Of a stretch of DNA of 64,000 nucleotides, positions 9,758-34,609 are shown one piece after another. The notes under the pieces are model-generated. The model was given only the letters and a program-made list of their open reading frames with translations, was not told the origin of the DNA and did not search any database. A program made the translations under genes and the position numbers. Each line of letters begins with the position of its first letter. Position 1 is the first letter of the stretch. Location: NCBI RefSeq assembly GCF_037975245.1, contig NC_092577.1:25107398-25171397 (forward strand), written 5' to 3'. The DNA comes from Apostichopus japonicus (taxonomy: Eukaryota; Echinodermata; Holothuroidea; Aspidochirotida; Stichopodidae).

Positions 9758-9962
9758 TATCGAGCTCAGATACTGACGAAAGTAGCGAGAATGATGGTGA
9801 GAATATCGCCGATCAACAATATTTACCTGGCGGCGGAGATATCTAGCCTTACATGTACGAACCAGAAACGGATGATTCCGGTGACGAGAACGATGGCGAG
9901 GGCCGTGCTGGAGGAGGAGATGTACAAGGCGATGAAGGTAATCGCCAAAGGAATTTGGACTG
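9758..9962 (+). CDS. Exon A, acidic leader of the P2X7-ballast gene
   Basis: The acceptor is TTTTCCTCTCAG (ending 9757) and the donor is GTACGT (9963-9968). The frame reads SSSDTDESSENDG, then GGGDI, TAG, PYMYEPETDD, ending in TG so that the next exon completes Trp. Confidence 0.7.
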
Positions 9963-11223
9963 GTACGTACTCAAATAATGAAGGATACGTGAGTTAGTCG
10001 AACATTCCCCCCATTCACCAGTAAATATTTGGGAATTTAAGTGTCCTTTATCACAGTGTCAATATCATTGTTTGCCTTCTGATAAGATTATACTTAATAA
10101 TCGAACGCCGCCCGAATGCTTCAGGCCAGTGTACGTTGTAGTTGTACATACTTGTTGTAGAAAGCGATTAACAAAGTTTTCGTAGGCATGTAGCCTAGGC
10201 TAATTTGGACTCAATCGAAGGTTGTTCACTCAATCGTGTAAGTGATCAAGCAGGAATTAGGCAAGCCTGTGGCTGCCAAGGCCTAACATAGTTATGCCTA
10301 ACGTTAGTTTAGCTGGCTTAGGTCAGTGACAATATGAATTATATTCTCTGACCAAGGCCTACATCAGTGGCTTAGGGTACTGTGATTCAGTCACTTAAAG
10401 GTCTGTTCACTCTGTGGTTAATTGGTGAATAGATAAATGAAGGAAATTATTGTTTGCCCTGTTTGTTTGCCCATCAAATTTACTCATGATAATGAAACTG
10501 TATCTGTATGCAACATTGAGGGTGAACAGAACCTAGGCTTGAATCCATCACAGTACTACAGTGCAGTACAATAACTGTTGCTCTAAGAAAAAGTCTGTGC
10601 CTTATTTTCAAAGGACATTATTTTGTTATTCATCAGATCATCTCAACAAGTTATTTTCAGTTTTTAATGCATATCTTGAAAGGCACAAGTTGTTGGAATG
10701 ATATCGGAATGAGTATTTGTTCATGGTCAAGCCGATATGAGCCTGCTTATTCCATTAACGTAGATTTTGTACGATTGTTGGTTCAAATGGTTCCAATCGA
10801 CCATGGTACTAACACATAATCACTAATCAGACCACTCATTTATTTTCTCCTGGTCATCAGAGTGTGGCTTTAATTAGCTGACCAAGCGAATACATAGGGT
10901 CTGTTCTTTCTGTTTATCTAATCTTGGGGTGGTGTCTTATAGAAATAAACAAGGATGATTTGGGCAGTAAAAACTTTCAGTAATATTGAACAGTGCATTC
11001 TGTCAGTTACAGGCGATTTTTTTTGGAATCAAAGATCTCTTACATTCGGAAATTTGGTGGGTTGCACTTGGGCTTTGTTGCAGTGGTTCATGAAATACAG
11101 GATAGACAGAAACTTCAACAGTTTCTAACTCCCTCAGCATTGTCGTTCACTAATTTATTACTCTATATACAGTGGTCTTTCTTGTGGTTTACTACTACTA
11201 CTTCAATCTTCTTTCACATAAAG

Positions 11224-11438
11224 GTGTACCTGTGGTCATTGTGCCATAACATAATGACAACTGCGAGGGAATGCAGATGCTGCACTGAAATTGATCAGGT
11301 GAAAGTTGTTATGGAAGAAGAAGGTGCAGGATGCATCACAACACATCCTGGATTTCATGCTGTCTGTCTTGACAGGTGGGGATTGAGGACAGCATATTTT
11401 GCTTACCGCCAACAGTATGGAGAAAATCCAAGAGAGCA
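11224..11438 (+). CDS. Exon B, Cys-rich core of the P2X7-ballast gene
   Basis: The exon starts after CACATAAAG and gives W-CTCGHC. After a frame shift it continues MTTARECRCC to YRQQYGENPRE. It carries the Cys ligands of the ballast zinc site. The donor is GTTTAC. Confidence 0.7.
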
Positions 11439-11811
11439 GTTTACATGAGATTTCTGAAAAACTGCATTGCTTACACGAATTGCCATAGAAATTTCATGTT
11501 ATTATAATTTTAGAAGCCTTTAACTACACGGCACCAGTTTTATGCTGAAATGTACAATAAATAAAATGGAATGGGCAGCACTTGTCATTATTGATCATTG
11601 AAGAGAGGTACAACTCATGGACTTTAATTCATCTGGGTGGCCAGCACTCAATGTCATGCTTAAAGTGTTCCACCATTTGGCATTTAAACATTGTAACTAG
11701 CATTAGATAACAATCCAAACAGAACTAATGTATGTTTTCAATACACAGCTTGCAAGTATTGGTACTGAACAAGCTTTTTCTCTCTTCTTTTCCTTTCTTT
11801 TGTATCTGTAG

Positions 11812-11983
11812 GAAGTATCGACACGTGGCGTATCGACAACTAGTGAGGTTTTGTTGGCAGTTTTTGGGGAAAGATGTCAGGGTGATCCTCCCAGCATGTG
11901 CCGTATTAAAAATTAGAGACACTTTTCCATCAGACAACTATGAAGGTTTTAGATTGCCTCGACTGTCAATTTGCATGTACTAA
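11812..11983 (+). CDS. Exon C, C-terminal part of the P2X7-ballast gene
   Basis: The acceptor is TTGTATCTGTAG. The frame starts QKYRHVAYRQLVRFCW and ends LPRLSICMY-stop. It holds the conserved YR-x-x-AYRQ and RVILP-C motifs. Confidence 0.75.
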
Positions 11984-11988
11984 ATAAA

Positions 11989-12886
11989 CATAACGGTAAA
12001 TCAAGAGAAGGTGTGTCTCTTTTATTAATGAAAATCTTCATTGGTCATCTACTTTAAAGTGCTGATTTTGTATGGTTTTCTAACATTAAAGAAAGCAAGA
12101 AAAAAAAATCAGTGACAGAAGAAAGTATGAACTTGGAAGTTGTGATTGTCTACAACTATTTTTAATTTCACAAAACAATGAGGAATAAATGAGTGCTTAA
12201 TGTGGCAGTGTGTGAATATGCATGTGCTTGTGTGAAGCCTCGACTTTCAATTACTTCAAGAAGTTGAAGAACTTCTCAAGAAGTAGCTGTAACTTAAAAG
12301 AAGGAAAAATTAGAGCTAAAGAAAGACTTACATAACATAAGAACTATATAAGATTAAAAAATACTTGAAATATTTATTTGACATAAAAACAGACTTAAAT
12401 GAGGGGTCAGGGTGAGGAGAATGGGGAAGAGGACATGTCCCCTAATGAACAAGGAGGGTGGCCCATACATTATCCCTGCAATGTTCAGGCTAGATGAAAA
12501 CATTTTGTCCCCATAATAAATTTCACTTCATACAAAAAAATGTGTAACAAACTTCACGTGGGTCCCATACAGTATGTACCATTGGCAAGCGGTAGTACTG
12601 ATTAACTTAAATATAATTTGTAGAAGCAGCATTTCAGCATTTAAAAAAAATGGGTGAAAGTGATCACTATTTAACCTTTCATATAACCCACACCCCCCCC
12701 CCTTTGTACCATTGGTCAATCATAGTGCTCACCAACTTTCATGATCATACAATACAATAAGTTTTTCTTATAAAATATATATAATGTTTAAGTGAATCTG
12801 TTCAAGTATGGTGGTATAGTAACATAAAACTAAAATTGATGGCAGATGGACGGACGGATAGATGGCTAGATCAGTAGAGCTGTATA
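11989..12886. other. Spacer between two convergent genes
   Basis: About 0.9 kb separates the 3' ends of the ballast-domain gene and the transposase-like gene. A C10 run lies near 12690. No coding exon was seen. Confidence 0.5.
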
Positions 12887-13051
12887 CTAGTTATATCTGC
12901 TCTTGTGTTGCTGGACAGCCTCCTCTTTGTCTGGATGGACATAAGAGCTTGCCAGTGGTGGTGGGGCAGAAGCTTCCTCAAGGTCTTCTATAGTGCTTCT
13001 TCCAGCCTTACACAAACTGAAGTAGAGTTGATGTCAGTTTCTCTACATAAC
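12887..13051 (-). CDS. Outer transposase-like gene, last exon
   Basis: The acceptor is TTGGGGTTGCAG. The frame reads YVEKLTSTLLQFV, then after a one-base shift KAGRSTIEDLEEASAPPPL and HPDKEEAVQQHKSRYN-stop. The end of the family C-terminus is clear despite the shift. Confidence 0.65.
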
Positions 13052-13190
13052 CTGCAACCCCAATAAAAAAGACTATTTATTCAAGGGAAAAAAGTAACAC
13101 TGTGACTTAATGGACAAATTTGCCTTTACATAACTTATGAAAGTTGCATTTCACTGCGAGAGGCTGTAGTTGCAAGAAAAAATATTTACC

Positions 13191-13338
13191 ATAAGTTGCA
13201 TCGGTAAGGACCTTGGAAACGGTGGCTTGGCCTTTCTTAAACTTTGGGAACCTCATGGCAAACCTTTCTTTTACCTCATTTGTGGTGGCTTGTGATCTGC
13301 TTGAATTTTCATTAAAATGGAGAGCAGCAAGCTGTAGT
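13191..13338 (-). CDS. Outer transposase-like gene, exon 7
   Basis: The acceptor is TTTGATTTCAG and the donor GTAAAT. The frame reads LQLAALHFNENSSRSQATT, FPKFKKGQATVSK and DATYG. The N-E-N segment is where the family's last acidic catalytic region lies. The exon has no internal stop. Confidence 0.75.
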
Positions 13339-13777
13339 CTGAAATCAAAATTAAAGACTAACATGTGAAGCATAAGAATTGAGTATGATTAAATGGCAGG
13401 TGTCTAAACACACCTGCTCATTGTTTTGCTGAAGTATTTACCTGGGTACAAATATTATTACTTGTGGAGAATACACCGATAATTTTCAACCCCTTATCTT
13501 CACTTTCAAACATTTCTGCTGGTTTCACAGTAAATATAAGACTGGGAGTACCATTGCTTTTACCAAAGATCATGTTTATAATGTGTACTTAGGAAAGTGT
13601 TAGGTATGAACCATTTTGAAAATTAAATATTGATGATGTTACTAATAAAAGACATCCATCTGTTTCCAAATATTTTAAAATTCTTTTTGGGTGTTAAGGC
13701 TATGCAGCTGGTAAGTGCAATGTCTACATGAGTTAAACCTTGATGCCTAGAATTGATAAAAGTGGTTCAATGTTTAC

Positions 13778-13949
13778 CTGCTGATCATTCCATGGTAGCT
13801 GTAGTGGGTATTCTTCGGGGCAAAGTGTATAACTACACTGTGAAAGCTTTCAACGTTTGAAGTTTGATATGCAGATCACAACTGCATAACGTCTTTCTAC
13901 AAACACTTAGCAGTTATCACCTGTACCATTTTCTCACAAACTTCGGTGC
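13778..13949 (-). CDS. Outer transposase-like gene, exon 6
   Basis: The acceptor is CCTTTTTTTGAACAG and the donor GTAAAC. The frame reads TEVCEKMVQVITAKC, SNVESFHSVVIHFAPKN and YSYHGMIS. Two in-frame stops lie in its first half. The split Arg codon joins perfectly to exon 7. Confidence 0.7.
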
Positions 13950-14124
13950 CTGTTCAAAAAAAGGGATAGATTTTGTGTTGTCATGGATACCATTTTGCAT
14001 TTATTGTATAATCTTACGTTGAGAAATTGGATAACCTTCCAATTTCTCAACGTAAGATTATCAAGAAGAGAGATGGACATCCACCCATGTTATAATAGTT
14101 ACACCTATACCTAGAACCACTTAC

Positions 14125-14376
14125 TAGGTTGCAGCCACTTCTTCTTTCTTCCTGGTACATTTAATTCGCCATGGACACATCTTGGGAAAAGATCACTAGC
14201 ATGCTGGTGCACATCTTGGATGTGATTGGCAACAGACAGCTACTTGGCCAACATCACATGACCGTCAGGTGTAGATGCTGCAACCCAGTAGAGGTGGTTG
14301 CTCACACTCTTTGCCCAGGCACCAGCTGCTGCACAGGTTTTCTTTTTCCCCAGCTTGTCAATTTTCTTACAAGTAC
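14125..14376 (-). CDS. Outer transposase-like gene, exon 5
   Basis: The acceptor is TTATTTTGCAG and the donor GTAAGT. The frame reads TCKKIDKLGKKKTC, GAWAKSVSNHLYWVAASTPD, GHVMLAK, stop, LSVANHIQDVH, LFPRCVHGEL and KKKWLQP. The stop is a TAG where the family has Trp (TGG). Confidence 0.75.
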
Positions 14377-14621
14377 CTGCAAAATAAGAAATTGTCCATT
14401 GTAGAAAAATCACTTTCAGACCAAATTTTACGTAATGAAACAAAACATAGCACTGGTAGTAATCTCATCATGGATGATTACCACAATTTGTTTTATAAGT
14501 GATGGTGTAGCAATAGGAACTTGGGCAAGCTTACAAAAATTCATTGTGTATGTTGGTCACTAAACCAAGACAGAGAGTTCTTGCTGTATTAGCTTAATTG
14601 AATTTTGCAATAAATAGACAC

Positions 14622-15052
14622 CTTTTGTTATGTGCCAAACATCATAGTGATGACCTGGAGATTTTGCCCTGCAAAGAACTGCAACCTCCCAATTGATTTG
14701 TCATGTTCAGATTCATCAGATGAGTGAATTGATGGAGTGTAGTCCGTACTACCTGGCGGTTTTTCGGTGTATCCCGATGAGGATGCCACAGCATCTTGTC
14801 TCTGTTGGTCCAGTCAGCAACTTCAATGGTGGTAGGGGACCAGTGAACACTGGACTTGTACATGTGTTACATTCACTGAAAATTAGAATAAACGCTTATT
14901 ATACCACACACATACAGTTGCTTTTTACGTGCTAAGAACAACGGACACGGACCAAAGGTCAAGAAAACCAAAAACAAACCCAGTCTGTAAAACAACACCT
15001 CCCGCTTCAGGCCTTCCAGTTCCATAGCATTACTGCTGGAAACTTCATTGCT
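14622..15052 (-). CDS. Outer transposase-like gene, exon 4 (interrupted)
   Basis: The acceptor is TTGTTCCCTTTTACAG. The exon starts SNEVSSSNAMELEGLKREV and ends HHYDVWHITKG at GTGTCT. Between these ends lies an 80-bp LINE tail, then about 200 bp resembling the Ser/Pro linker of exon 2. The expected TDRH-type catalytic segment is not intact; a TNRDKML string near 14780 may be its remnant. Confidence 0.65.
14919..14998 (-). mobile_element. LINE 3'-end fragment inside transposase exon 4
   Basis: It matches 59449-59520 almost base for base (CGGACACGGACCAAAGGTCA, then CCCAGTCTGTAAAACAACA). Read on the minus strand it ends in CACGTAAAAAGCA, the same kind of tail as the full-length LINE at 38167. 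It is therefore a 5'-truncated LINE insertion. Confidence 0.6.
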
Positions 15053-15139
15053 CTGTAAAAGGGAACAAATTGCAAGGAATATGAAAGATTTGTTTCTGAT
15101 TGCCTCATTTCATCAAATGTGAGCAAAAGACATAGTTGT

Positions 15140-15143
15140 TTAA
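15140..15143. repeat. TTAA target duplication, left side of inner element
   Basis: TTAA stands directly outside the left terminal inverted repeat and is repeated at 27947-27950. Confidence 0.75.
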
Positions 15144-15180
15144 AGACGCGCTAGCGTACAAGAAACCGGCGGCGCTATTT
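15144..15180 (+). repeat. Left terminal inverted repeat of inner element
   Basis: It pairs with 27910-27946 read on the other strand. The arms differ at arm positions 2 and 10 and diverge after about position 36. Confidence 0.8.
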
Positions 15181-15469
15181 GTCACTGACCGAAAAAGTTT
15201 TGTGCCAGTCACAAAAACCCGGATGTTAATTAGAGTACACACAGTGTTAATTAGAGTATGTTAATTACAGTACACACGGGTATACTACACTACTATACCA
15301 GGGAGTTCCATAACAACTCCCTGTCTATACCAATTGGTTCTGTGAAGTTACAACGCTGCGCTGTGCGTGTGTGGGGCTCAGACACCCATTCGGTATTCAC
15401 ACTTCATCGAACGTAGTTACATGATCACCATTTCTAAGGAAATCGGCATTTTACAAAAAATTACGGAAA

Positions 15470-15701
15470 ATGTTCCCAAGGAAAAGATTTGGAAGTGCTC
15501 CTGGGAGACCATTATCACATGGATTCGATGCCGCGAGGAGTAGAAGAGAAACAATCAGGAGGCGAAACCTTACGCAAGTTTATCTTCTTCATGCTCATGA
15601 CGAATGGGTCTCACAGAAGGCAACATGGGTAGTTGAACAAGGGAAGCCTATGAGTAATGCGGAGTTTGCTAATCACCTGCTGACAGATCATGCTGACACA
15701 G
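15470..15701 (+). CDS. Inner transposase-like gene, first exon
   Basis: ATG at 15470 follows an ACGGAAA context. The frame reads MFPRKRFGSAPGRPLSHGF, then RSRRETIRRRN, LLHAHDEWVSQKATW and NAEFANHLLTDHADT, with donor GTAAGT at 15702. The basic N-terminus probably contacts DNA. Confidence 0.7.
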
Positions 15702-17528
15702 GTAAGTGAATTTGTCCGATTAAGTCATAGTTAATAGGCCTATATTTACTCTCAACTTTGACTTCAGTTAATTCTTCAAGCAAAGTAAAACTTAGTCTAA
15801 AGCCAAAATATAGCTTAGTTTATTTCGAGATGGTTATCGTAGGACAATGTTATACTAGTATAGTAACAATAGGGATTAGGCACCCAAACTAGGCCGACAT
15901 CCCGGTCTTGTACGTGTTTCATGATGGCCGGGTTGTAACTTCTAAGCAACAATTTGGATGGTAACTTCACGATTATTCAACCAAATGCGTTAGAAAGGCA
16001 TAAAAAATTTTCTTCAACTAGTAGCTGATCACCCGTCGAACTTTCCTACACTATAGCTCAACCGCTACCGTAGTTTGCGTGCTGTAAAATACACCAAAAA
16101 GTAAATAAATAATACTCCTTTCTTATCTTAAAGTCCACTATAGCTGCGCATCGCAGACAAAAAGACTAAGTGAGAGGTTACTTTCTTTGTTGGTTTTTGC
16201 TGACCCTAACCAGAATTAGGCCTCGCCTAATGTCCAAATTTGTCAATGCATATTTTGGGGTCTTTCTTAGAATATGTACAGAAAATCAAGACTCGCGGAA
16301 ATGTTTCTGCAAGGCTGGTATAGCATATAATGGCTGTAAGTGCTTTTCAGTTTAATACAAACTGCAATGCAACTGAACCGCCACTGCATATAACATAACA
16401 TAACATAACAATTAATATTTATATAGCGCTATTCCATCTAGATCATAGCGCTAGATATATTGCCTACATAAAAGAAAGTGTCAGGACTGCAAGTTTTGTT
16501 TGAGAAAAAAAAAACTAAAACAAAGTTACTATTCTCCTGCTCATGCACCTTGAGATCAGTTTATGAAGACTTGTACCAGCTACCTCATAAATTAGGCTTT
16601 ACTGCATTTTCTTCTCATAACTGTGAAAGGTGTGATGTATTGCAAAAGTTGTGACAAATTTGGCTGAAGCTTCAAGCTAGCTGTGTTCAGGCTAAGCTGA
16701 TAACCCCAACACTGTAACTTGTTCATTTTTTTAAGTAGTACATTTCAAAGAAAGCTTTCCTTTCCATATTGTAAGAGACTCAGGTTAAGATATGACATGA
16801 CAATGAATAATCTCAGTAGTGCATATCATGAAGGTAACAGTCTACTGGGAGCTGACTGTCAAACATGGAAAAGTTAGGCGAATATGTACGGTAAGGAAGG
16901 ACTATAGAGTATACATGTGCGGTAAACATACTTTTGGCTAAGGAGTGTATGCAACATTTGATGGAAAACAGTTTTATGGTTTCTATGTGCTAATGCTCAT
17001 GTGTACTTAGTGGTTCAAATTATGTTGTGCCATCCATTTTCACAACTTTAATAGTGTCCAAGACTTATGGTGATGTATTGGTTACTATCAGATTATGAAA
17101 AAAATTTATTGCCACATTTTAATTTCTCTCAATTTGTAAGGCCCCGAACAGTATACATCTGTGTAACATTTTCAATATCACTGCTGTGAATTACACCAAT
17201 TTCCCAAAAATATGATTGAAATTGATAATAATGACATGCTACACATACAGTGTAACCTGTTTTGTACGTGAATTTGGTTGCCTGACAAAGAAACTATTAC
17301 CAGGAACTTAACAATACCCCCCCCCCCCCAATCCCACTCTTCATACTACAGTAATTTTCCTTGGTAGTGAATTTTTTTCCACTATACTTCTGTTGAAAAC
17401 ATAATCTCACAAAACAAGAACTAAAAATTGTCTTCTTAAAAAATGTCTTCTTTGCTTGATGTACTTAACCTTCTTATCATATTGATGGAACCTATAAGAA
17501 TAACTATAAATTGAATGTTGCATTACAG
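15702..17528. other. Intron of the inner transposase-like gene
   Basis: Mostly unremarkable AT-rich sequence. At 16385-16450 an (AACAT)n run is followed by TATATAGCGCT motifs, a common short repeat type. A C10 run lies near 17320. Confidence 0.45.
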
Positions 17529-17626
17529 ATGTTCACCTCTTTATATGAGTAGTGTTCACACACAGACTGAGTCAGATGACAGCACCCAAGTGTCACAGCC
17601 ATCTGAAGCTCCTCTTCTTGATATTG
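17529..17626 (+). CDS. Inner transposase-like gene, linker exon
   Basis: It lies between an acceptor (TTGCATTACAG) and a donor (GTAAGT). Only the frame CSPLYMSSVHTQTESDDSTQ, VSQPSEAPLLDI is open, which does not match the phase left by exon 1. Confidence 0.5.
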
Positions 17627-18192
17627 GTAAGTGGAATAGTGGCAACTCCTTAATAAGTTTTAAAATTATTGTTCTTCTCTGGGAATTGAAAATAGCAATT
17701 AAACCTTCTTGTTCAATTAAGCTTCTGTATAAGAACTTACACTTTCCTTACAAATAAATTGGTTAAACTGAAAATGAATGAGTACAGCTACTAAGACTGC
17801 TCAAATCCACAATTTAATGGTGGTTCTTGTACTATTTCATTGGGCTATGTCAGTTGAAAATGATATTATGCAAGCAATACCACTTTATTTCTGTGATTCA
17901 AATCAGTAAGGAATGTACATTTTCCCTGAATAAGGTGACTCAAGTTGATCACTAGACCTGTCTCTCTGCAGGATCTGCATATATATTAAGCATGCCCTAA
18001 ATAGATAAGGTAGAAGCAGATCGGTGCAATGTGAGAATATTTCAACTTTTATATGTAAATAGTGTAGTTAGTGAGAATACCTTAAGCCTTTTATGCCAAC
18101 CCAGACAAAAAGTTTGATTTAATAGTCAGGTGGCTTAGCAACAATTTTTAGGCTTAACGTTACAGGCCGGACGTTATCGGTTCCGATTTTTC

Positions 18193-18760
18193 AAGATGGC
18201 GGCCAAAATCCAAGATGGCCGCCAGAAAAAAAGGAAATGTCATATATCTGGCTGTAAAAATCAGAGATGAACAAATGAGGGGTCAATTCAGGTGTTTCCG
18301 GGGTCACTGAAACAGATGATGATCATGGCATGTTGCTTGAGTAACCCACTTCCAAGATGGCGGCCAAAATCCAAGATGGCCGCCAGAAAAAAAGGAAATG
18401 TCATATATCTGCATGGCTGTAAAAATCAGATGAACAAATGAAGGGTCAATTCAGGTGTTTCCGGGGTCACTGAAACAGATGATGATCATGGCATGTTGCT
18501 TGAGTAACCCACTTCGAAGATGGCGGCCAAAATCCAAGATGGCCGCCAGAAAAAAACCAAATGTCATATATCTGGCTGTAAAAATCGGAGATGAACAAAT
18601 GAGGGGTCAATTAAGGTGTTTCCGAGCTCACTGAAACAGATGATGGTCATGGTATGTTGCTGTGGCCACCCACTTCCAAGATGGCGGCCAGAATCCAAGA
18701 TGGCCCCCTGGAAAAAAAGGAAATTTCATATATATTCAATCTCCAGACCCCCTGTGCCCT
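18193..18760 (+). repeat. Minisatellite, about 162-bp unit, 3.5 copies
   Basis: Units start at 18193, 18354, 18517 and 18678. Each opens with AAGATGGCGGCC and continues AAAATCCAAGATGGCCGCC, later AACAGATGATG and GTAACCCACTT. The copies are over 90% alike by eye, except the last. AAGATGGCGGC is the known YY1 core recognition sequence. Confidence 0.75.
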
Positions 18761-19050
18761 TTTCTGATCGGGACCATCAAACCTTCCGTCCTCAAACGTG
18801 TAAATGAAACCGGGCTAGCACCCTGACTATATGTTATGGCTGGTATTCTAATTGTGTCACTTTGGTTGAGGAAGCCACTTATTGGGGAACTTTGAGGTGT
18901 GGATAGACACTGTCGCAAACCCGTTATTATATGGGAGTTACGAGTGTCATGTAGGACTGGTTACATTGAGTCAACTATATAATAGGGTAACTTGAGGGAA
19001 AACAGACCAGATGTGAATACTGACTCATTGAGAGATTTTGTAGGATTGTG

Positions 19051-20928
19051 CACCCTTCATAAACACAACGTCAATTGTGCGAACAACACACGCTAAGTCA
19101 GGTCACTAGGCATCTGGGGCATTTAACTCGTTCTTTTCGAACCTGTACCCCAGGGCTACTGTTAGCGAGGATCTCCAGGAAGACTTGTTGTCTGGTATAG
19201 ACAAGCCCACCCCCCCCCCATAGTAAAACGATAGGTTGTGTTCGAATCTCTCCGTTGGTGAGCTCTGGACAGCGGTAGCAGCGATGAAGAAGGGAAAGTC
19301 CCCGGTCCTGATGGCCTCCCTGCTGAGTTATATAGGACTTCTGGGAGGTTCTCGGTGGGGACACAGAGGGCTGGAAATATTGTTCTCCTCCCTAAGTCGG
19401 GAGACCCTTTGGACCCTAATAGGCGTACAATAACGCTGTTAAATCTGGACTACAAAATCCTGGCCAAAGCATTAGGAAATCGCTTAGCGAATGTGATGCC
19501 GGATATTGTAGGTCCTCTCCAGACTTACGCTGTGCGAGTCCTTCGGATTCAACCTAGTGTTTATTCGTTGGTTCTCGTTACTATATAAGGACGTCACGAG
19601 CATGGTCACTGTTAACGGATTTACTTCTGGTCCCTCCCCGGTTCGAAGGGGAGTCCGTCAGGGTTGTCCCCTCTCCCCGTTGTTATATATTCTCTTCAGC
19701 GAAACGCTCAGTACCTCGCTGGACAGATGCTTGGGGTTTCGACCTTTCAATGTACCGGGTGGGGCTAGAGTTAAATGCGTGCAATATGCCGATGACGTCA
19801 CTTGTATTGTGTCGGACCTCGTCTCCTTCAAGCCTTTATCGAAGGTTTTGGCCACCTTCTAAGAGGCTATGGTGCCAGACTTAACAAGTCCAAGACCAAA
19901 GGGCTGCATTCAGGAGGTTGGCGTGGCCAATCCCTCCCGTTCGATGCTACTTTGTCAGATGTCATGATCAGGGTAATCGGCATCTGGCTAGGTTATGGTG
20001 CCCCAGAGGCCACCACTTAGGCAGAGAAGGCTGATCAGGTGGAGGCAAGGCTCGACACATTCAATCTGAGGTGACTCTCCCTCCATGGGAAGGTTACAGT
20101 TGTCAATCGTTTTATTTTTTCCTCTCCTTCGGTATCCTGGTACGGTGATCGCTGCACCAGGTTATTCCTTGGTACGATTGGAGAGGATCATTTTTTATTT
20201 CATTTGGGGAACGTGCAAACCAAACCTTCTCAAAAGGACCGTTCTGTAAAAGACCCCCTTGATCGGGTGGGCATGGTTTGGTCCACCTACCATCTTAACT
20301 GCGCTTTCTCCTTTTGATAGGTTTTTTCGTTGCGTTTGAGAATCCCTCGTTTGCCTTTTTTGGTTCTGGGGTGGTTTTCTTTTTCGCCACTACTGGCCCG
20401 GATCCTTTTCCAATAACCGGCCAAAGGCGACACGCTCTTCGGGGTGTATACTCAGATTGGTGACTCACTTTGTAGAATCAAAGAGGAGGGTGGTCCAGAT
20501 GTTCTGCTTAACGTGGCCCACTCGGCTTGCCAAACTGCCATCTCTCCAGATGTGTGGTGTTCTGTGTTGTAAGTCACTAGATAGCCGTCTCCGGGACTTC
20601 GCGAGGAGGATTGCACATGGGGTCCTCATCACTAACCATTTTCGCCTAGTCAGGTGGCGATTAGGTTATGGGATTTGTCCCTGTGTGGGCTGTAAAGCCA
20701 TTAGGACTATGCAACACCTTTTGCTGGAGTGTCCGGTTGGTGTCGGAATAATGGTTTCACGCCTTCGTTATTGGTTGTTATTGTTGTTGTTTTGGTTATT
20801 AGTGTCATTGGTTGACCTCAGATGACTAGTGACCCGACTTAGCGTGTGTTGTTCGCAGAATTGATATGTGTTTATGAAGGGGGGGGGGGGCTTGTCTATA
20901 CCAGACAACAAGTCTTCCTGGAGATCCT
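19051..20928 (+). mobile_element. Decayed Tx1/L1-like LINE between inverted repeats
   Basis: The inside (19236-20825) shows broken frames of a LINE reverse transcriptase: LNLDYKILAKALGNRLAN, RRGVRQGCPLSPLLYILFSE, VQYADDVTCIVSD, and a C-terminal DFARRIAHGVLITNHF with WRLGYGICP-GC. All are close relatives of the LINE at 33-38 kb. A 41-bp stretch at 19168-19208 is repeated exactly inverted at 20888-20928, each beside a C or G run. A second pair (19051-19117 and about 20805-20875) is also inverted and about 85% alike. It stands directly before the inner transposase catalytic exon. Confidence 0.65.
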
Positions 20929-20934
20929 AATAGC

Positions 20935-22177
20935 AGACCTGTAGTACATGTGGAATGTACGCAGGGAACTTACAGCTAGCTGCAGGGATTGTCGTTTCAG
21001 GCAACAGCTTCACAAAAACAGGGCAGCTGTTCAAGAGCATGAATTTGAAATGTATTTCTAAGGACACCTTCTTCAGAGTACAGAAATTGTATGTCGCCCC
21101 AGCTGTGGAAGAGATGTGGGAAAAGATGCAGGAGACCGTTTTCTTCATTGAGGGACAAAGAAGTAGTTGTGTCTGGTGATGTCTTCAACGATTCTCCTGG
21201 ACATAGTGCACAGTACTGCACTTACACTATGATGGAAGAAAGCAGTGGTAAGGTCCTGCATATGGAGATTGTAGATGTGAGGGAAGCAGCTGGGAAAAGC
21301 CCAAACATGGAGAAGATAGGCTTCACCCGAAGCATGGACTTTCTCATGGAGAGAATCAATGTCGAAGAGGTTGTGACAGATGGCCACCTTGACATTGCTG
21401 CTCTCATGAGAAATTGTTCCAAATATGAAGGTATCATCCACCAAAATGATGTATGGCATGGTAGCAAAAGCCTTACCAAAATGCTCACGAAAAGCGAATG
21501 CTCACGAAAGAACAAAGCGATTTTGGAGTGGATGCCAGCCATCAGGAAACACTTTTGGTTCTCTTCCAGCAGTTGTGATGGAGACGAGAAGAAATAGAAA
21601 ATAGGAAATAGATGAAGGGGAGCATGACAAGGCCTGGCTGACCCAGGGATCAGCAGCACATAAAACCTTAGGGAGGTTGCTGACTGGCAAACGCTTTATG
21701 AAAAAGTTAGCATACTACAGGAACTTCAGGCATACCGGCAACCTGGAGTCATTTCATAACCATTTACTTATGTACGCACCAAAGCGACACTCTTACGGGT
21801 TTGTTGGGTTTGCTACTCGAAGTAAGCTTGCAGCGATTGACAGCAACTACCATGCTGATCGTGAGCAAGCTGTCACCAAGGACGGACATCTACGATACAG
21901 GTGCAAATATAGCAAGCGAACCCGCAACTTCCATGCGGAACCATTACGTGAGGCGAAAAGCTACGGCTACATAGCTGACTTAATGAGAAGTATTGCTGCC
22001 AAGCGATTAATAACACCTGGCCACCTTTCTCAGCATGTCTCCCTCGCGCAAGATGATCCAAGAAGGATCCATCCAAGGATGTCAATGCTTCCAAGGTCAT
22101 CATTAGATGAGCTTGTAAAGGATCATCTCAGTCGCTTTTCACCCCAGCAGCAGATATCTGAACAACCCCCAGAGTGA
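20935..22177 (+). CDS. Inner transposase-like gene, catalytic exon (frame broken)
   Basis: Three overlapping frames cover one protein: up to about 21140, then 21140-21597, then 21613-22177, ending SPQQQISEQPPE-stop. The first D (GDVFNDSPGH), the TDGH segment and the NLESFH segment are all present. A stretch that in relatives joins the second and third regions is missing near 21600. Confidence 0.75.
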
Positions 22178-24556
22178 AGAAACCCATTAGAGTTTTTGTA
22201 GTTTCATAGGTGTATTTGTAGTAATTTAGCTGTTGCCATTTCCAATATATCATATATCACTTTAATTTTGTTGACTGTATTACCTCCAACAAGTAAGTTT
22301 TCACTCTTGTGTTGCAAAATATGTCAGATTCATAAAAAATTACACATCAAAACCACAATGCTTTCAAATATTCTGATTGTCAATGTGTAATTTCAACTCC
22401 ATGGTTTTTAATTGTTATTGTTTTACTGTGCTGGCAGCATATGTAGAAAAATGTATTTTGCCATTGAGGCTTTCTCCTGTGTTAGTGATGTATGTGTGTG
22501 TGAAAGGAGCAAGGCAAGATCACCATTTAAGTAATTAGTTATCATATCGGACTGATATAGTTGCACTACTCACTCATTTTCTGGAGTGCTGTATTTATCT
22601 GTACTTGAACAGGGGCGTTAATATATCAAGTCTTGCCTAATCCTTTTCTTCTAATGACATGTGGTATTTAAAAAAAAATTATGGCTAATATGGGAAGTTA
22701 TGGAGTGTTGTGTAACAGAATGTATGTTACCCTCATCTTATACACTATACAACATCTATAGTGGTAAATTGGTTGTAACCAAGCGAGAGGTGGGAAGTTT
22801 GAATATGCTTCCTTATATACTTTATTTATTTGTTTATATTTGTTTGTACTATTGTTTAAGAAATACACTTGGTATGTTTGTAGGCTATTGCCTTTGGAAA
22901 ATTTTGATGTTTGTTAAATCCTCTGACCTCACATATATGTATCATGTGAGGCCCTCAATCACTAGGGTCATCTAGTCTTAATGCTCTATCCATCCATAAA
23001 TTATAATCTTAATGATGGTAAAATCATTCCCCTATTGAGAGGGTCGCATAAGAAAGTGTCACAAACACATATGCATATAGTATGCCTATAAGAATGGGGT
23101 TACCCCCTCTCCTCTGGTTCAGTCAATTGATTTTCCATTACTTTCTAGCGTAAACCATTGGTTTGATGGTGTTTCAAAGAATATCGGTTATAATAATCCA
23201 ATTCACATTGTTAACTGCAATTATAGTCTTAGCTTGTTCTTAGTTGTTCAATTAACTGATATGTAATGGCATGTATTGTCTACTACTTTCATTTTGTGAA
23301 AATGGTGCAAATGCCAAAAAAAAAGATTGTTTTTACTTTGTTTTCAGCTGCTGCTAGGAATCACTTTGACAATGATGATATGGTCAGTTGTTATACTGTT
23401 TAGTTATCACCAGGCCTGGATGTAACTGTAATGACATCTAAATGCAGCTCTTACTTTTCTACGTATTAAAAAACTTGTAAAGTTCATTAATTTGTAGCAA
23501 AGTGAGAATTTTAGCTTTTCATTTTCGTGTTAGTAAAATGCTGTTCTTAAATATATTTTTTTGAAAGAATTTCATTTCATTTTCGTTGTTGCATTTATTT
23601 GTTTTATAACATAACAGTACAATTAAGTCAAAGAACAAATACGTGAATGGACGTGATTTTAAAAAAGCCTCTTGCGAGTACAAAAGAAGCAACATAGTAG
23701 GAAAAAAACCCAACAATGTAGACAAGAAGAATTTCCTAAACGTACGCTACCCCACCATCTTTATGCCACCATAAGACTACAAAAGCTCACAAGAACATAG
23801 CGCTTGAGATTAATGAAATGGTTCAAGATATATTTCACTTGTGATAACAGCTTTCTGGAAAAACTTAATGAGATTCCACAATGTATGCTGCTGTCAAAAA
23901 AAACACATGAGGCATCACCCACTCCCCCCCTCCCTTCCCCCATATGCAATAGTGTGACAGGGTAGTACATCAAATGCTTTTGAAAGACACCAATATAACT
24001 TTCCACATAATCAAGTGAATCAGTGAAGTTTATCAACTGTATTTGCCAGCACAAGCTTGGTTGAGTGACCAGGACATAAACCAAACTGATGTAAGGGAAA
24101 TATGCTAGGATACAGAAGATTAGAAACATAAGACAAGTAGAAAAACGGTTTCAATTGCTGACTATTTTGAGCAACTCCCTTTTTGATTTCTTGCCTGAAG
24201 GCTCAAGGAATCTATGCGTTGGTGATTGCGTGTGTGTGTATGAGACGCCTTTTGCCTGTAAACACAATAACTCACCAATTGCAAGTGGGATTGAAGTCAT
24301 TCCTTGGACATAGATGCACCATACTGTATGGAAGAACCCACCTGATTTTGTTGCTCATTCACATGAATAATAATGAGGTCACAGGGTCAACCCAAAAAAT
24401 CTTCAAATGCTAATAACTCTTTAACCAAAAGTCATAATTTATTTATAATTGGTATTGATATATATAACTTCACATACCCCTCCTCCTCCTCCCCCCCCCC
24501 TTCACCTTGTACGTGCACGACTGTGGTACATACTTGAACACACGACTACTAATCGT
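22178..24556. other. Spacer between the two inner genes
   Basis: 2.4 kb of AT-rich sequence between convergent 3' ends. No gene was seen. Short C runs and (T)n are present. Confidence 0.45.
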
Positions 24557-25064
24557 TCAGTCTACAAGTATTGCATCTCCCAGTTGAAATCCTTTATACC
24601 TTCCATCAGCGGAAGGATAGCGCTCCCTGATTTTCCACACACAGCATGAAGGAATGACCAGTCGTCTGTGTGCTCCTAGCCGTCCATGTTGCCAGTAGAT
24701 GTATTGACGATACGCATAATATCTGAAGTTGGCATTTGACCTATCTGGGGTGTCTGCAAAAGTGTCCTCATTTGCCCTCATCGCAACGTCGAGTATGTAA
24801 ACATTTAGACAGATTTCAGAAAATATGCCTTGTGTTGCCAAGCATATATTTCTGTTCCCACAGCATCTCTGCTCAATAGCACTGTTCATGTCATGGCAAT
24901 TCCCACAAACACACCAGGATGGAGCTTCTTCAGCTTGAAGTGAGGCACTCACATCATCATTTGCCTGCCTCGTTATAATATCTTGGTATGCACCAGGATT
25001 TCTTCTAAGTAGCTGTGCAGCTATCTCTTCTAGGCTGGGACCTGTCCAGATCCTGGAGGAATGT
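24557..25064 (-). CDS. Ballast-domain exon of inner gene
   Basis: The acceptor is TTCTCTTTGCATTGTAG. 168 codons are open, and the ballast landmarks lie at residues 55-165. A helical stretch (SLEEIAAQLLRRN) precedes them. This is the best-preserved coding exon of either element. Confidence 0.8.
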
Positions 25065-27626
25065 CTACAATGCAAAGAGAATGAACCAGAAAGTCAAAAT
25101 AAGTGATATCTTGTAATATAAGAGGAAAATTTGTATACTTTCCAAACTCATGTATAGTTGATGGTAGATGACCTTTGTCCTCCTAGAAAAGCAATAGGTA
25201 TCAGCCACTCACGAATAGCAGACCTAGTTTAAAGTTTTAGCAAATCTCTGTTGCTCAGATACCATGTTTGCAAAAAAGAAAAGCAAATAAGAATAATGTT
25301 GTATTGACATACCAAGTTTAAAGACAACATCTTTGCCTATTTTCACTTAATGGTTTGGAGGTTATCAAACTTCCAGCTACATTTACCTCAAATAATATTT
25401 GATCCTCATGAAAAACAATTTTTTTGTTATTTTATGAGTTTATTTTCTATTTCAAAATCCAGCCCCTTAATGTTATGAATTGTATATTGCACTGCTCCAG
25501 ACAGAAGCAGATTCAAATTACAGTTTAATTAATGATGTGTAGAACAGGTGACGATCTTTTGTGTGGCAAATGTAAGAAATCCACAATACCATTTGCAGAG
25601 CATGAGTAACATGAGATAACTCTAATATGTAGACCTGTATGAACACTATTATTTCAGACACTGAAAAAGGAGGATATAGGCCTGTGACTTTTTACCAGAA
25701 TAACTTCGTCTCGATTTTCGGAAGGTTGTTCGTCTTGATTTGTAGTTGGGGATTGCTCCATTTCTTCTTCCTCACTGGAGTCATCCTAGCAAAATGAGAT
25801 TTTTCCAAACAATTTTCAATGTGGAGCTATTTTTAAGGAAGTGATATTTTAATCATTTAGTTTGAATATTATTATTGCAGAGATTCAAACTGTCATGCAG
25901 TTACCCAACAACACTTCTCGACTGGCAATTACTGGCACAAAAGCTTCAACAATATATTGGAGAATTGGGTTTGCGGATATTCAGTTACAATTGTTAGGGA
26001 TTTTCCGAAGCTTCAGTTGTGGCAAACAAAAGTAGATGAATGGAAACTTCCTTTGACAACTGGTTAGTGGGCTAACATGCAATGTGATTAATAGTGTACA
26101 TTTATAAAGTATTAGAGGAGGATCAAATCTATTTGCAAACACAAATTAATGATAAATTGATAGGTAAATGACACCATAGCCTTAATGCCTAGCTCTTACA
26201 TATAGTTTTGGGATTGCTGAGCAAGCTGCATATTTCTAAAGTATATAAGGCTTGTGGAACAGCAAACTGCATTTTGTGGCAGCTTACTCCTTGGTACCGT
26301 AACAATGTTTCGGCCTGTTTAATAAGTATGATGGTATGTTTTGTGCTACTAAACCCCTGTAACTGTACAATTCTTTGACTAAACACTTTTGCATTTGATG
26401 ATCAGTCCTCTTGGATCTCAAACAACCACCTGTGCAATCTCGTACAAAATAGCTCAACCTAAGAAAGATTTTCAATCAAAGTGGCTATTCTAACGACTGT
26501 TCGTAAGAATAATTTCCGACTACGCATGCGCAGTTGCTATTTTTATGACAGGAGAACTATTTTTTACGACCAGGAGTAACAATAAATTCCGGTTAGGGTT
26601 AGTGTTAGGATTGGGGTTTAGGGTTAAAGGTAGGGTTACCCCTACTACATGCGCAGTTGCTTTATTTACTTTACTGCGCTTCAATTCGCCTTTGTCGTAA
26701 GAATAGTTTATAAATAATTTTCAATCACAGTGGTTGTTGTAGTCTTTACAAATAAAGAAGACAATTCTTATTTCATGCTTTAACAGTTTGCATCCCCCCA
26801 AAATCCACGAAAACATAAATAGATGCTTGTTTTCAGGTACAGTAGAATGAGCCCTTGGTAACCACTAATTCCTGATGTTACAGACGATATCTTTCTACCT
26901 TAGTTTCCTCTGACATGCTTAGAAAGAAGCTTAGGCTTATACCCTATGTGCTTATATAGTATCGACTAAACAATGGAGTGTTATGGAGCATATTTATACT
27001 ATGAGATCCATTCTGTATTGAAAGGAAAGCACTTTATGTCAGTACTGCTTACATTACACGTCAAGTAACCGATACTGTCAGACAGTGCCTAGATGTAGTA
27101 TATTTTGCCAGATGACTGCATTGTATAAAATGTGTACATGGTCACTCTTGTGATCCATTAGTTGCAAGTGAAAAATAATTATGCTGTTTGTTTGGTGAGC
27201 CTATTATTGATCATTTTAAGGTAGGTCTAGGCCCTAAAGTGCTAAGTAAAAGTTACCGCTACTTTCTCCACTTAAACATTGTAACCTTCTATTATTTAGC
27301 CCTTGTAACTTGTAGTGCTGCTTGGGCTTACTTACTTCGTTGTTAATATTTATATGAAAGAAAAGATAGGCCTCACTATAGCAGCACTAGTAGTACTAGT
27401 GGTAGGGCCTACACGATATACTCACTGATTCATAACGGTTTCTGCACGGCTTACGATTGCTTCCACATCTACAACTAACGCCACAGGACTTCTCATCTAC
27501 TTTGCACGGACAAGCCCCTCGTCCCCTTTTCCTTGAACAAGTTGACCGGCAACGACAAACTACAGGGTCAGTTGTAGTTGTAAACCTCTCACTCGATAAT
27601 TCACTTTCTTATGGCGTGGCTGACAT
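24557..27626 (-). CDS. Cys-rich plus P2X7-ballast-domain protein gene (inner element)
   Basis: The exons are 27626-27426, 25785-25696 and 25064-24557. Exon 1 starts MSATP, then one TAA, then ESELSSERF and a Cys-rich block (CRCRSTC, KRGRGACPCK, SCGVSCRCGSNRKPC) ending at GTGAGT. Exon 2 is acidic (DDSSEEEEMEQSPTTNQDEQ). Exon 3 holds the ballast domain: WCVCGNC, RCC, NFRYYAYRQYIYW and RLVIPSCCVWKIRERYPS, ending KGFQLGDAILVD-stop. The family is a cytoplasmic zinc-binding domain of P2X7, which also exists without the channel in multicopy genes. Exon 1 and 2 phases fit. Exon 2 to 3 does not, so a small exon may be missed. Exon 3 is uninterrupted. The gene lies within 320 bp of the element end, opposite the transposase gene. 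Confidence 0.75.
25696..25785 (-). CDS. Acidic exon of inner ballast gene
   Basis: Thirty codons between TTTTGCTAG and GTAAAA: DDSSEEEEMEQSPTTNQD, EQPSENRDEVIL. It corresponds to the acidic leader of the outer copy. Confidence 0.55.
25786..27425. other. Intron of inner ballast gene
   Basis: Apart from the MITE at 26483-26708, no feature was seen. Confidence 0.4.
26483..26708. mobile_element. MITE copy with telomere-like core
   Basis: The ends are GGCTATTCTAACGAC and GTCGTAAGAATAG (inverted). Inside are CATGCGCAGTTGCT twice and GGTTAGGGTTAG-type sequence. A second copy lies inverted at 52849-53097. Confidence 0.65.
27426..27626 (-). CDS. Cys-rich first exon of inner ballast gene
   Basis: Eleven Cys fall within about 37 residues, in the pattern C-x-C-x3-C then C-x-C, C-x3-C-x-C, C. 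ATG is at 27626; the sixth codon is TAA, likely a changed Gln or Glu codon. The donor is GTGAGT. It could be a zinc-binding module. Confidence 0.65.
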
Positions 27627-27909
27627 TGTAAGTACAAGCTGGATTCCGCAAATAATATGATCTTGAGGGCCAGCTAATCGCCCGGCGTAATTTTCAGTAG
27701 CGTCTTATTACATTCAGCACACGTACGCATTGACATGCACAGGAAGCTTTGTACACGCTGTAGCGGTCGCACAACGATGTATTGAATAGTATTGAGTCAA
27801 GAAGGGCCTCCCATATCCACAGGTTCAGAGGTTATGACAAAATTTTTGCAAACAAGGCTGCTTAGATGGCGCTATCATTGTTTGCATATAACGATAAACT
27901 TTATAAATG

Positions 27910-27950
27910 TAATAGCGCCGCCGGTTTCTTGTACGCGAGCGCGTTTTTAA
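27910..27950 (-). repeat. Right terminal inverted repeat plus TTAA
   Basis: 27910-27946 is the right arm and 27947-27950 is the TTAA duplicate. Forty-seven bases of outer-gene intron separate it from the splice donor at 27997. Confidence 0.8.
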
Positions 27951-27997: not shown

Positions 27998-28412
27998 CTG
28001 TACTAATTCTTGGTGAAGAACCATGTTCCAGTCAAGGTCAACGAAAGTGTAGGACCCATATTTTGCAGAGTGACCTGGGCTGTCACTCCTTCCATCTCCA
28101 CCATGGTTCACTGCCATACCGATCTCCTTCAGCCCCTCAATCATCTCCTCCTGCGACTCCCGCCAAACTCTGCTGATTGTTGGATGCAGCCAGTTCCTCT
28201 GATGCCTGTGAAATGTCCGTTTTGTAATGGCAGGACAATACATATTTGTAAAGACCCGCAGGGTCTTTGAAGGATTTGATCCTGCAAACAGAATCCCTGC
28301 ACTCATCATCAGGTTGCCATGGGGAATGTTTCCTACTAACGTCTGGCTGTCCCAGAAGGTGATGTTGGCACACTCTTTACACCTCTGCCTGACCCTTATC
28401 ATGGACCCTATA
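27998..28412 (-). CDS. Outer transposase-like gene, exon 3 (first catalytic D)
   Basis: The frame reads MIRVRQRCKEC, FWDSQTLVGNIPHGNLMMSA, TFHRHQRNWLHPTISRVW, GGDGRSDSPGHSAKYGSYT and HQELVQ, then the donor GTACTG. A likely 5' extension in another frame (ECGLCKFSEWELKHYR, 28413-28470) points to a one-base shift near 28410. The left end of the insertion-bearing intron starts at 27997. Confidence 0.75.
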
Positions 28413-28993
28413 ATGTTTCAGCTCCCACTCACTGAATTTGCAAAGACCACATTCAAATCACTTATAAAAATTTTTATTTGGTCATTCAGACAGAATTTAT
28501 ATTTTTGAGGATTTTTTAGAACAGCCTTTTTTCATCATGAAGGTATGAAAAATGTCAATCAACAAAACAGGCAATGTCCTTCAGAAAAAAAAAACAGACC
28601 CTAATACTGTTCATCTATGATTTGCCAAAAGAAATGTAATTGGACGGGAATAAATCTAGTAACAGGAAAACCATTTTGCACTTTCAGAATTGCACACACC
28701 ACTGTTTCATGAAAACCTTTGATATTACTTTCTTACATTAGAGCATGCAGGTTTTGTGTGCTTGACCAAACGCATGTAAGGCTGAATTCTAAAAACCAGC
28801 AAGATCTGTTGATAATTATTACCTAACAAAACAACCCATTCATCTGCTCACACTTTTTTTTTGGTGTTTGTCTTCAATTTTCACACTTTGAGAGAGAATG
28901 ATTGACTACATTGTACTTAATATAGTGAATTGAGTTAACATATATGTCATACACTGACATGCAAATGTGAGAAAGAAGGATAATAGTTCTTAC

Positions 28994-29258
28994 ACTGGAG
29001 ATGATCCAGGTCCATGATCACCACTGGGATCAGATGAATGAGAAGAAGGCTCATAAATTGGGCTTGATGGCTGGTTTGGCTCACTGGATTCTTCACTAAG
29101 TTCTGATGGTGGCTTTGTAGGGCTAACTGATAATGGAGTGGTTGGCTTGGGGGTAGTTGGCTTATGAGTAGCTGGCTTTGGAAACTCCTCAGATGTGTGT
29201 CTGAACTCTAGTGGTGGCAGTGGGACAAAAGCACACTGAACGTATGCCTGAACATACT
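28994..29258 (-). CDS. Outer transposase-like gene, exon 2 (Pro/Ser linker)
   Basis: The acceptor is ATTTTTTGAACAG. The frame reads YVQAYVQCAFVPLPPLEF, then KPTTPKPTTP-type repeats, SSPIYEPSSHSSDPS and GPGSSP, ending at GTAAGA. The linker is low-complexity and unstructured by composition. It joins exon 1 in phase. Confidence 0.6.
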
Positions 29259-30117
29259 CTGTTCAAAAAATTGAAGGTTGAGATTTATGTACATTGCAAA
29301 ATGTTTCTTACCTAACTAGACAATAATTTGCACTTACAGGGTTTGACAAACACATGGCTGCATTGGTTTTTCTTCTGTTTAACAGTTTTAGCAATGTAGT
29401 TTAGAAATCCTCAATGTCAATGTCTAATTAATGACATGAATATAACCTTGGGTCTATTTCAAATGTCTTAACTGTCAAGCAACATGAAGTCATGTACACA
29501 CCATATATCAAGTCAATCTCACATTTATTCGCTAAAACCTGCAAATCATTACTATACAGCATATTCACAACAAAACCAATAGGGCCCACCATTGTGCCAA
29601 GTAGTATTTCAACCAACCCACAGTTCTATAGATTCTGTGTGAATGAACCAAATTCAGGCATAATTTTCTCGGGCCCCACCCCTCATATTTAACCAGTAAA
29701 ATGAAATCTGGAACTGAAAATCTTCAATTCAAACCAACCCACTGTTCTTCACATTTACTTACATCAACACACATGTTATCTTCAGTAAATAGTACTTGAG
29801 CAAAGGAACCAAAAACTATACAGACAACAATCTTATCTACCAGTAGGGCATGGGCAGAGGTGATGTATTACCTTTAGACAAAAAAGCAGTCTCAACGGCC
29901 AACTCATCTCTGACCTGAACGTTCACAGTATCCCTTGGTGCAACAACAATACTACTTTCACCCTAGAGATGCAAATGTTAGATAAATCACTGATGAAACA
30001 TTGCACATGACTCCATTCAGTTCTTAGATATTCTGTATTTTGTGTCCATGAACACTTACATATTATGCACACAATAAAACAATATATACATATATATATA
30101 TATATGTATATATTTAC
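29259..30117. other. Intron of outer transposase-like gene
   Basis: AT-rich, with a (TA)n run near 30085-30110. No coding exon was seen. Confidence 0.4.
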
Positions 30118-30313
30118 CTGGATTCCACCTTTGGTCGACATTCCATGCTCTAAACGTGTAATTTAGGTCGTGTAGTTTGGCTCGCTCGTGTACAGCCAGT
30201 CGTGTGCTTTTTGAGAAACGCTTGATGCTGTTGGATTGTGCACAGCGCCATCTATTATGTCGTAACTTTATTTTCTCAAATCGACCTTTTGATCTTGAGG
30301 GACGACTTAACAA
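30118..30313 (-). CDS. Outer transposase-like gene, N-terminal exon
   Basis: A basic segment reads SRPSRSKGRFEKIKLRHN, SKSTRLAVHERAKLHDLN and VDQRWNP, with donor GTAAAT in phase with exon 2. No ATG fits the frame, so the true start is unclear; 30313 is a TTG. The segment S-x-S-T-x-x-x-x-x-E-R-x-K-x-x-x-L resembles the N-terminus expected in this family. Confidence 0.45.
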
Positions 30314-33503: not shown

Positions 33504-34609
33504 ATGGCGTCGCGCCGTGATAGCCGTATTGTTAAGTTAACTTTTACCGGTGAACAAGCGGTTCCACCGGTGCAAGTGTTCAGTATTTTGAAGAGTAAGG
33601 GTGTTGCGGTTCCTGGAGAGGTTGACGCTTTGCAGGCTCTCCAGGGTCGTAACACATGACTTACGGTTCACCAGTGACGTGACCCGGCAGAAGGGTGTCA
33701 CGTTGCTGAGTAATGTCGATGGTTTGACAGTTACGCCATACGAACGTTCCGTATGGGTAACTGTCATCCATGGGTGCGTCAGGAACTTGTCGCAACTGTT
33801 TTAGGTCGGTTTGGGGCTGTCAAGGCTACCAAAATGTGCTCCTACGCACAGGCCCCTGGGGTTTTGAACGGGCACCGACAGGTTCGGATCGACCTAAAGC
33901 AGGACATTCCCTCCTTCCTGTTTATTGCAGGGCATAAAGCTCACGTGCGTTATCCCGGTCAGCCCCGCACCTGCTTCAGGTGTGGGGAGACCGGGCACGA
34001 AGCCAAGGGCTACCCAAACAAAAAGTCTGGGCGCTGCCTTCGTCTTGGGCATGATACCTCTGCTTGCCCAAGCGAAGTTGTGTGCTCACTCTGTGGGAAG
34101 GAGGGACATGTTTTTCGCGCTTGTCCCTCCTCTTATGTATTTATGACAAAGAGCAGGGGTCAGGCAAAGTCGCAGAGTTCTGACGCACCTACTGCCTCGG
34201 AGGAAGCTCCACGCAAGGAGGGGGAACCATGGGGGATTCACCTTCCGCACCTGGTTCACCCTCCCCCGTAGTTGCAGACCCTAACCCCGTGCCCGCACCG
34301 AGAAAGTCTCCAACAGCTTCTCCCATCAACTCGTCCAGTTCCGTCCCCAGTCCGCCGCCGGTATCGCCAGATCCGGAGACTCTGTCCGACGGCGACTCCG
34401 GGGACTCGGTAGTCATCGGGTCTCCGGAGGCTCTGTCTGACAGCGACTCCGGAGACTCGGTGATCGTAGAGCCGAAACGTGCCACCGGGACGAGCTGGTA
34501 CGACGAGATGGGGGAACCCTCTCTAAAAAGGTCGGCCTCAAGCGACGACTCAGACGACGATATGTCGTCTAGAGCTCGCTTGAAGCTTACAGAATCGTCA
34601 TCGGCGTAG
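33504..34609 (+). pseudogene. LINE copy A ORF1, zinc-knuckle RNA-binding protein
   Basis: ATG at 33504 (ATC ATGGCGTCG). The order is MASRRDSKIVKLTFTGEQAV, then FTSDVTRQKGVTLL, VTPYERSVWVT, SYAQAPGVLNGHRQVRIDL, and three CCHC knuckles: CFRCGETGHEAKGYP (its last Cys changed), CLRLGHDTSACP and CSLCGKEGHVFRACP. A Pro/Ser-rich tail (about 34229-34609) follows. LINE ORF1 proteins bind their own RNA. Compared with copy B there is a frame change near 33653 and loss of a few bases near 33770. Confidence 0.75.

Follow-up and report, generated by a model that had tools for sequence, protein, structure and literature searches.

Kolobok DNA transposons generate TTAA duplications and have ends of the form 5'-RR/YY-3', and their DDD/E transposase carries a C/DxxH motif between the second D and the E (Kojima and Bao, 2022, PMC9587614). 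According to the text of that paper available to us, a zinc finger lies between C/DxxH and the last E in almost all Kolobok lineages except Kolobok1, and the Kol0 lineage (Kolobok-1_XT type) encodes both a transposase and KolX, a protein with the ballast fold that is similar to residues 476-595 of human P2X7. The transposase-KolX pairing has been reported in Kol0 elements of vertebrates, annelids, cnidarians, and sponges, P2X7 has been interpreted as a fusion of a P2X4-like gene and KolX, and Nanor has been regarded as a likely domesticated KolX, not the reverse (Kojima and Bao, 2022). Here, we analyzed a stretch of 64,000 nucleotides from the sea cucumber Apostichopus japonicus (contig NC_092577.1, positions 25,107,398 to 25,171,397; the window, in which all coordinates below are given). 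The window very probably contains two Kolobok-type DNA transposons, both decayed and of the KolX-carrying kind (Kol0), nested one within the other and each with a convergent transposase and KolX gene, and P2X7 would have arisen by uptake of the last KolX exon.

Both gene pairs are located between about 9.7 and 30.3 kb of the window. The inner element occupies 15144-27946 (12,803 bp), and its inverted ends are flanked by two TTAA. The features of the inner element are as follows.

15140-15143, no strand: TTAA target-site copy to the left of the inner element, pairing with TTAA 27947-27950
15144-15179, plus strand: left terminal inverted repeat, beginning with AG (5'-RR)
15470-15701, plus strand: first exon of the inner transposase, from ATG 15470 and followed by GTAAGT; splice site placed by eye
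19053-20951, no strand: reverse-transcriptase fragment enclosed by inverted arms and immediately preceding the transposase core (RVT_1, E 3.2e-10 for 19512-19862)
20934-22177, plus strand: DDD/E core of the inner transposase (D 21190, D 21370, DVWH 21448, E 21743)
24557-25064, minus strand: last exon of the inner KolX gene with the ballast domain, in an open frame of 24557-25093; putative acceptor 25066-25065
25696-25785, minus strand: possible acidic middle exon of the inner KolX gene; splice sites placed by eye, phase mismatched with the last exon
27426-27626, minus strand: possible first exon of the inner KolX gene, with ATG 27626, a stop at 27611, and then nine cysteines within 38 residues
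27911-27946, minus strand: right terminal inverted repeat, reading AA from the end
27947-27950, no strand: TTAA target-site copy to the right of the inner element, pairing with TTAA 15140-15143

The arms at 15140-15179 and 27911-27950 were 95% identical over 40 nt (blastn, E 1.7e-10), the outermost 4 bases of each being TTAA. Reading inward, the ends begin with AG on the left and AA on the right and therefore have the 5'-RR form. Three marks of Kolobok, the TTAA target, the 5'-RR ends, and a DxxH transposase, are thus combined in this element. Its two genes are convergent, with the transposase on the plus strand and KolX on the minus strand. Their ATGs lie 326 bp inside the left end (15470, against 15144) and 320 bp inside the right end (27626, against 27946), in agreement with the distance of about 320 bp given in the original prediction, which had been made from the letters and open reading frames of this DNA.

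The inner transposase spans ATG 15470 to 22177. The motifs of its core are found in the order DSPGHSAQY (21190), VVTDGH (21370), DVWH (21448), and LESFH (21743), and they are distributed over three frames (20934-21179, 21049-21597, and 21605-22177). In this gene and in the outer one, the residues that we take to be catalytic were assigned from the family pattern. The inner transposase is broken, because its core is split across three frames and the reverse-transcriptase fragment lies directly ahead of it. The NHI...H motif, presumably a zinc finger, had no match in the inner transposase, whose frame is broken. The arms around the reverse-transcriptase fragment are 67 and 77 nt long with identities of 90% and 86% (blastn), an odd form, like a fold-back element, inside the inner transposon. 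A 161-bp unit is also repeated 3.3 times with 91% identity at 18192-18733 within the same transposon.

The inner ballast frame (24557-25093, minus strand) matched Pfam P2RX7_C with an E value of 3.2e-32 over residues 44-170. Against PDB, it matched four distinct P2X7 sequences at E 1e-19 to 5.4e-19, the fifth row having an E value of 0.99, and tblastn of the frame against the window found only the inner and outer ballast sites at E<0.1. Use of the acceptor at 25066-25065 would give a last exon of 508 nt and about 168 residues, compared with 170 residues in exon 13 of P2X7 (Rump et al., 2020, PMC7016195). With this putative acceptor, the match in exon size would fit the capture of the domain by P2X7 through splicing. 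The start at 27626 is the one taken by the original prediction, which did not mention the stop five codons later, at 27611. The cysteine-rich exon at 27426-27608 had no match in Pfam (E<=10), NCBIfam (E<=1), or PDB (E<=10); a CXC-type DNA-binding domain, suggested by the look of the first exon, is not claimed. A structure predicted for the inner ballast frame without an alignment had a mean predicted local distance difference test score of 34 and was unusable. Between the KolX exons, 26476-26719 is one copy of a dispersed repeat whose other copy is inverted at 52872-53104 (75% identity).

The outer pair is also convergent, with KolX on the plus strand and the transposase on the minus strand, and comprises the following features.

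9758-9962, plus strand: possible acidic exon of the outer KolX gene; splice sites placed by eye, in-frame stop inside
11222-11448, plus strand: cysteine part of the outer KolX ballast domain (RCTCGHC ... CITTHPG ... AYRQQYG), in two frames
11816-11983, plus strand: last exon of the outer KolX gene (AYRQ ... LPAC ... IRDTFP), with a putative start
13200-15052, minus strand: rear exons of the outer transposase, with SNAMELEG, DVWH, NHIQDVH, and VESFH and an in-frame stop before NHIQDVH
27998-30300, minus strand: front exons of the outer transposase, with DSPGHSAKY at 28058-28084 (presumed first catalytic D); one exon ends at 27998, and those upstream of 28417 are putative

The outer ballast frame (11729-11983, plus strand) matched P2RX7_C at E 3.4e-8. 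The outer transposase occupies the minus strand between about 30.3 and 13.2 kb, and its motifs follow the expected order from DSPGHSAKY (up to 28084) through SNAMELEG (15034), DVWH (14643), and NHIQDVH (14227) to VESFH (13854). From 14227 downward it reads NHIQDVH...FPRCVH, a candidate zinc finger, although the NHI...H motif is matched at 5361 too. The second catalytic D was not found intact in the outer transposase, and this absence, together with the in-frame stop before NHIQDVH, indicates that the outer copy has decayed. The original prediction had confined the locus to 9758-27626, an interval that misses the front exons of the outer transposase, about half of the gene, at 27998 to about 30300. 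Its claim of two nested elements with the same convergent layout held for the gene pairs, which were confirmed by P2RX7_C and by the motifs, while ends were identified for the inner element alone. Two repeats touch the outer transposase region: a perfect 24-bp inverted repeat with a 6-bp loop at 14008-14061, and a direct repeat of 14914-14997 at 59443-59525 (91% over 85 nt).

The inner element interrupts what appears to be an intron of the outer transposase, between the exon end at 27998, which precedes GT, and the next exon at 15052, which follows CAG. Once the insertion and one TTAA are removed, this intron is 138 bp long. The element at 15144-27946 thus appears to be the younger one, inserted at a TTAA in the apparent transposase intron of the older one. 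In a six-frame scan of the window, DSPGHSA.Y, [DC]VWH, [LV]ESFH, and [WR]C.CG.C were each found twice, once per pair. Weaker patterns in the same frames were less specific: the pattern for the second D gave 4 rows, of which 2 were the same inner site and none lay in the outer gene, NHI...H occurred twice, including the match at 5361, and 3 of the 5 occurrences of AYRQ were in ballast genes.

Identical gene content and relative order might also result from one segmental duplication, in which case the two pairs would count once, a possibility that the original prediction had raised against its own proposal. Because the pairs are oppositely oriented, a copy would appear as an inverted match. The best 40 direct matches and all 24 inverted matches at E<=1 were considered in blastn, and no match joining the pairs was present among the 24 inverted rows obtained when the window was compared with its own other strand. 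At the protein level, the transposases of the two pairs were 37.5% identical over 64 residues, 33% over 75, and 28% (27.6%) over 58. The KolX proteins were 27% identical over 133 residues in tblastn, in a match that starts inside the putative intron, and 36 of 114 aligned residues were identical (32%) when the outer exons were joined by hand. In addition, one element lies within the other at a TTAA and has its own ends. The duplication is refuted at the DNA level, and with protein identities this low we rejected it as extremely improbable. Judged by these comparisons, the two pairs are divergent families and count as two.

Several points weigh against the proposal of two nested Kol0 transposons. 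Stops or frame changes are present in both pairs, so neither copy is active as it stands. The exon phases of the inner KolX gene do not all join, and its gene model is incomplete, while an apparent intron divides the ballast domain of the outer KolX gene, so that not every KolX gene has its ballast domain in one exon. Pfam matches for the transposases were all below the cut-off (PF20700, E 0.0028 for the inner core, and 0.038). Membership in Kol0 is provisional and would follow from matching features, and two convergent pairs are too few to make convergence a rule. Moreover, the ends of the outer element were not found: no TTAA-anchored inverted pair reached at least 8/10 or at least 10/14, and none reached at least 13/18 among 18 x 26 sites. 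A single pair of 11/18 was rejected as the outer ends, since 75 of 177 random window pairs reach at least 11 and the value is at chance level. Because the ends were not found, that the outer pair is one element is something we infer. The failure to find outer ends would also be expected if only the inner element were a real Kolobok transposon and the outer genes were two unrelated remnants facing each other by chance, the lone 11/18 pair being within the chance range. However, like the inner pair, the outer one combines a ballast gene with this kind of transposase, and it does so in convergent order; we regard a chance arrangement as quite unlikely.

Among known systems, the Kol0 lineage of Kolobok is close to what is found here. 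The inner element shares with Kolobok Kol0 the TTAA target, the 5'-RR ends, the DDD/E transposase with C/DxxH, and a second gene with the P2X7 ballast domain, and the outer pair shares DVWH and VESFH and the ballast gene; unlike the described elements, the copies here are broken and the outer ends were not found. The orientation of the Kol0 genes is not stated in the text of PMC9587614 available to us, and the convergent order is an observation made here. A few piggyBac elements, which also use TTAA, encode a KolX-like protein without most of the 7 cysteines (PMC9587614). In contrast, the inner KolX protein has 8 of 8 cluster cysteines, and the ends and DxxH fit Kolobok, so the element was not placed in piggyBac; consistent with this, no piggyBac match was found in Pfam at E<=1 among the 10 pieces scanned. 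A similar layout is known from the RAG-like transposons, in which a transposase gene and the gene of a zinc-binding partner stand tail to tail between inverted ends, and in which the adjacent RAG1L-RAG2L pairs found were invariably convergent (PMC7204232). They differ in having another transposase, a kelch/PHD partner, and a 5-bp target duplication (PMC7204232), and they are not the same group. Beyond PMC9587614, we found no literature on KolX with Kolobok, or on the ballast domain with P2X7 and a transposon, in a search outside which most subscription papers fell, and both transposon families described here may be named already.

As in other members of the family, the transposase would recognize the inverted ends and move the element by cutting it at TTAA and pasting it. 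KolX might be a zinc-stabilized partner protein in the transposition complex, by analogy with the RAG2-like protein that accompanies the RAG1-like protein, and an accessory subunit of transposition is its most likely role. A P2X4-like gene would then have acquired the last KolX exon and given rise to P2X7; the fusion itself has been published (PMC9587614), whereas uptake through the last exon is the route suggested here. The original prediction that a ballast protein of a mobile element was captured by P2X7 is therefore supported, although its core was already in print and the role in transposition is one that we infer. That the P2X7 immune receptor owes its tail to a transposon protein is an important point, yet it has been in print since 2022. 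What the window adds is that two divergent families share the two-gene convergent layout, and that in one gene the ballast domain falls in one last exon, which is similar in size to P2X7 exon 13, as capture by splicing would need.

Two published observations also stand against a mobile origin. In the accessible text of Rump et al. (2020, PMC7016195), ballast genes were reported to number one or few (<10) per species, large gene families being absent, so the high copy number on which the original prediction was premised is weaker than stated. The same authors described a linkage of ballast genes with two further genes that extends from sponge to sea urchin and that they read as ancestral. Low copy number and ancestral linkage are, at first sight, unlike an abundant mobile family. 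They would suit an explanation in which the ballast genes belong to the host (Nanor-like genes, for instance) and are carried as passengers without a role in transposition, as short ballast proteins occur in many animals; the available text of PMC9587614 also yielded no functional data on KolX. On the other hand, the pairing is seen in two divergent families here and in Kol0 of the four animal groups named above, and Kojima and Bao take Nanor as a domesticated KolX (PMC9587614). Passenger host genes are therefore unlikely in our view, and the linkage described by Rump et al. could be accounted for by a linked transposase. The ballast domain of P2X7 exon 13, Nanor, and the PTHR36981 proteins is the same as that of the KolX proteins here, which lack the channel.

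The inner and outer KolX proteins were aligned with two P2X7 chains, 6u9v from rat and 9e3m, with clusters defined according to Rump et al. (2020). All 8 cysteines that make up the three clusters were retained in the inner protein, and the ninth rat cysteine, next to H547, is replaced by Y. In the outer protein, 5 of the 8 cluster cysteines were aligned; a CC is nearby but unaligned, and the last cysteine is replaced by A. Rat P2X7 contacts guanosine diphosphate (GDP) through R546, H547, R574, R578, and K583 (Rump et al., 2020, PMC7016195). Two of these five contacts are retained in the inner protein (R546 and R578) and three in the outer one (R546, R578, and H547). Position 547 is Y in the inner protein and H in the outer one, and R574 and K583 are retained in neither. 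Partial retention of the GDP site in other animals was likewise reported by Rump et al., who, in the text available to us, left nucleotide binding open (PMC7016195).

Partial conservation of the P2X7 GDP site is the sole basis for a more speculative idea, namely that KolX might sense guanine nucleotides as a subunit of the Kolobok transposition complex, in which case P2X7 would have its GDP site as a leftover of such a subunit. We consider this very improbable. The P element belongs to another superfamily, which has the C/DxxH motif in common with Kolobok (PMC9587614), and its transposase requires guanosine triphosphate (GTP), acting through a built-in GTP domain, for DNA positioning, a role that reviewers of this transposase describe as unobserved in other studied transposase complexes (PMC7776569). 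If the idea were true, KolX as a separate protein might give Kolobok an input comparable to that of the GTP domain of the P element transposase.

Relatives were also searched for in viral, prokaryotic, and phage collections, which were the only ones covered, and the negative results there say little. For KolX, 1 stretch matched the pattern in viral contigs and 13 in prokaryote genome contigs, none of which was confirmed, and no match was obtained in phages at E<=0.01. The outer transposase had no match in viral contigs.

Several other features were observed in the rest of the window. An open frame of 251 residues at 42536-43291 had no Pfam match at E<=0.1, and at 41311-42090 an open frame covers a 111-bp unit repeated in tandem (3.9 copies, 94%) and encodes a repetitive protein with many acidic residues. 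The frame at 56292-56807 (minus strand) showed a weak likeness to the SAM-like N-terminal domain of phage integrases (PF13495, E 0.0013, below the cut-off) and perhaps belongs to a tyrosine-recombinase element. In addition, 34857-38166 and 59772-63105 are inverted copies resembling a long interspersed nuclear element (94% over 3.3 kb, blastn), with RVT_1 in the frame 59940-61439 and zinc knuckles in 33714-34271.

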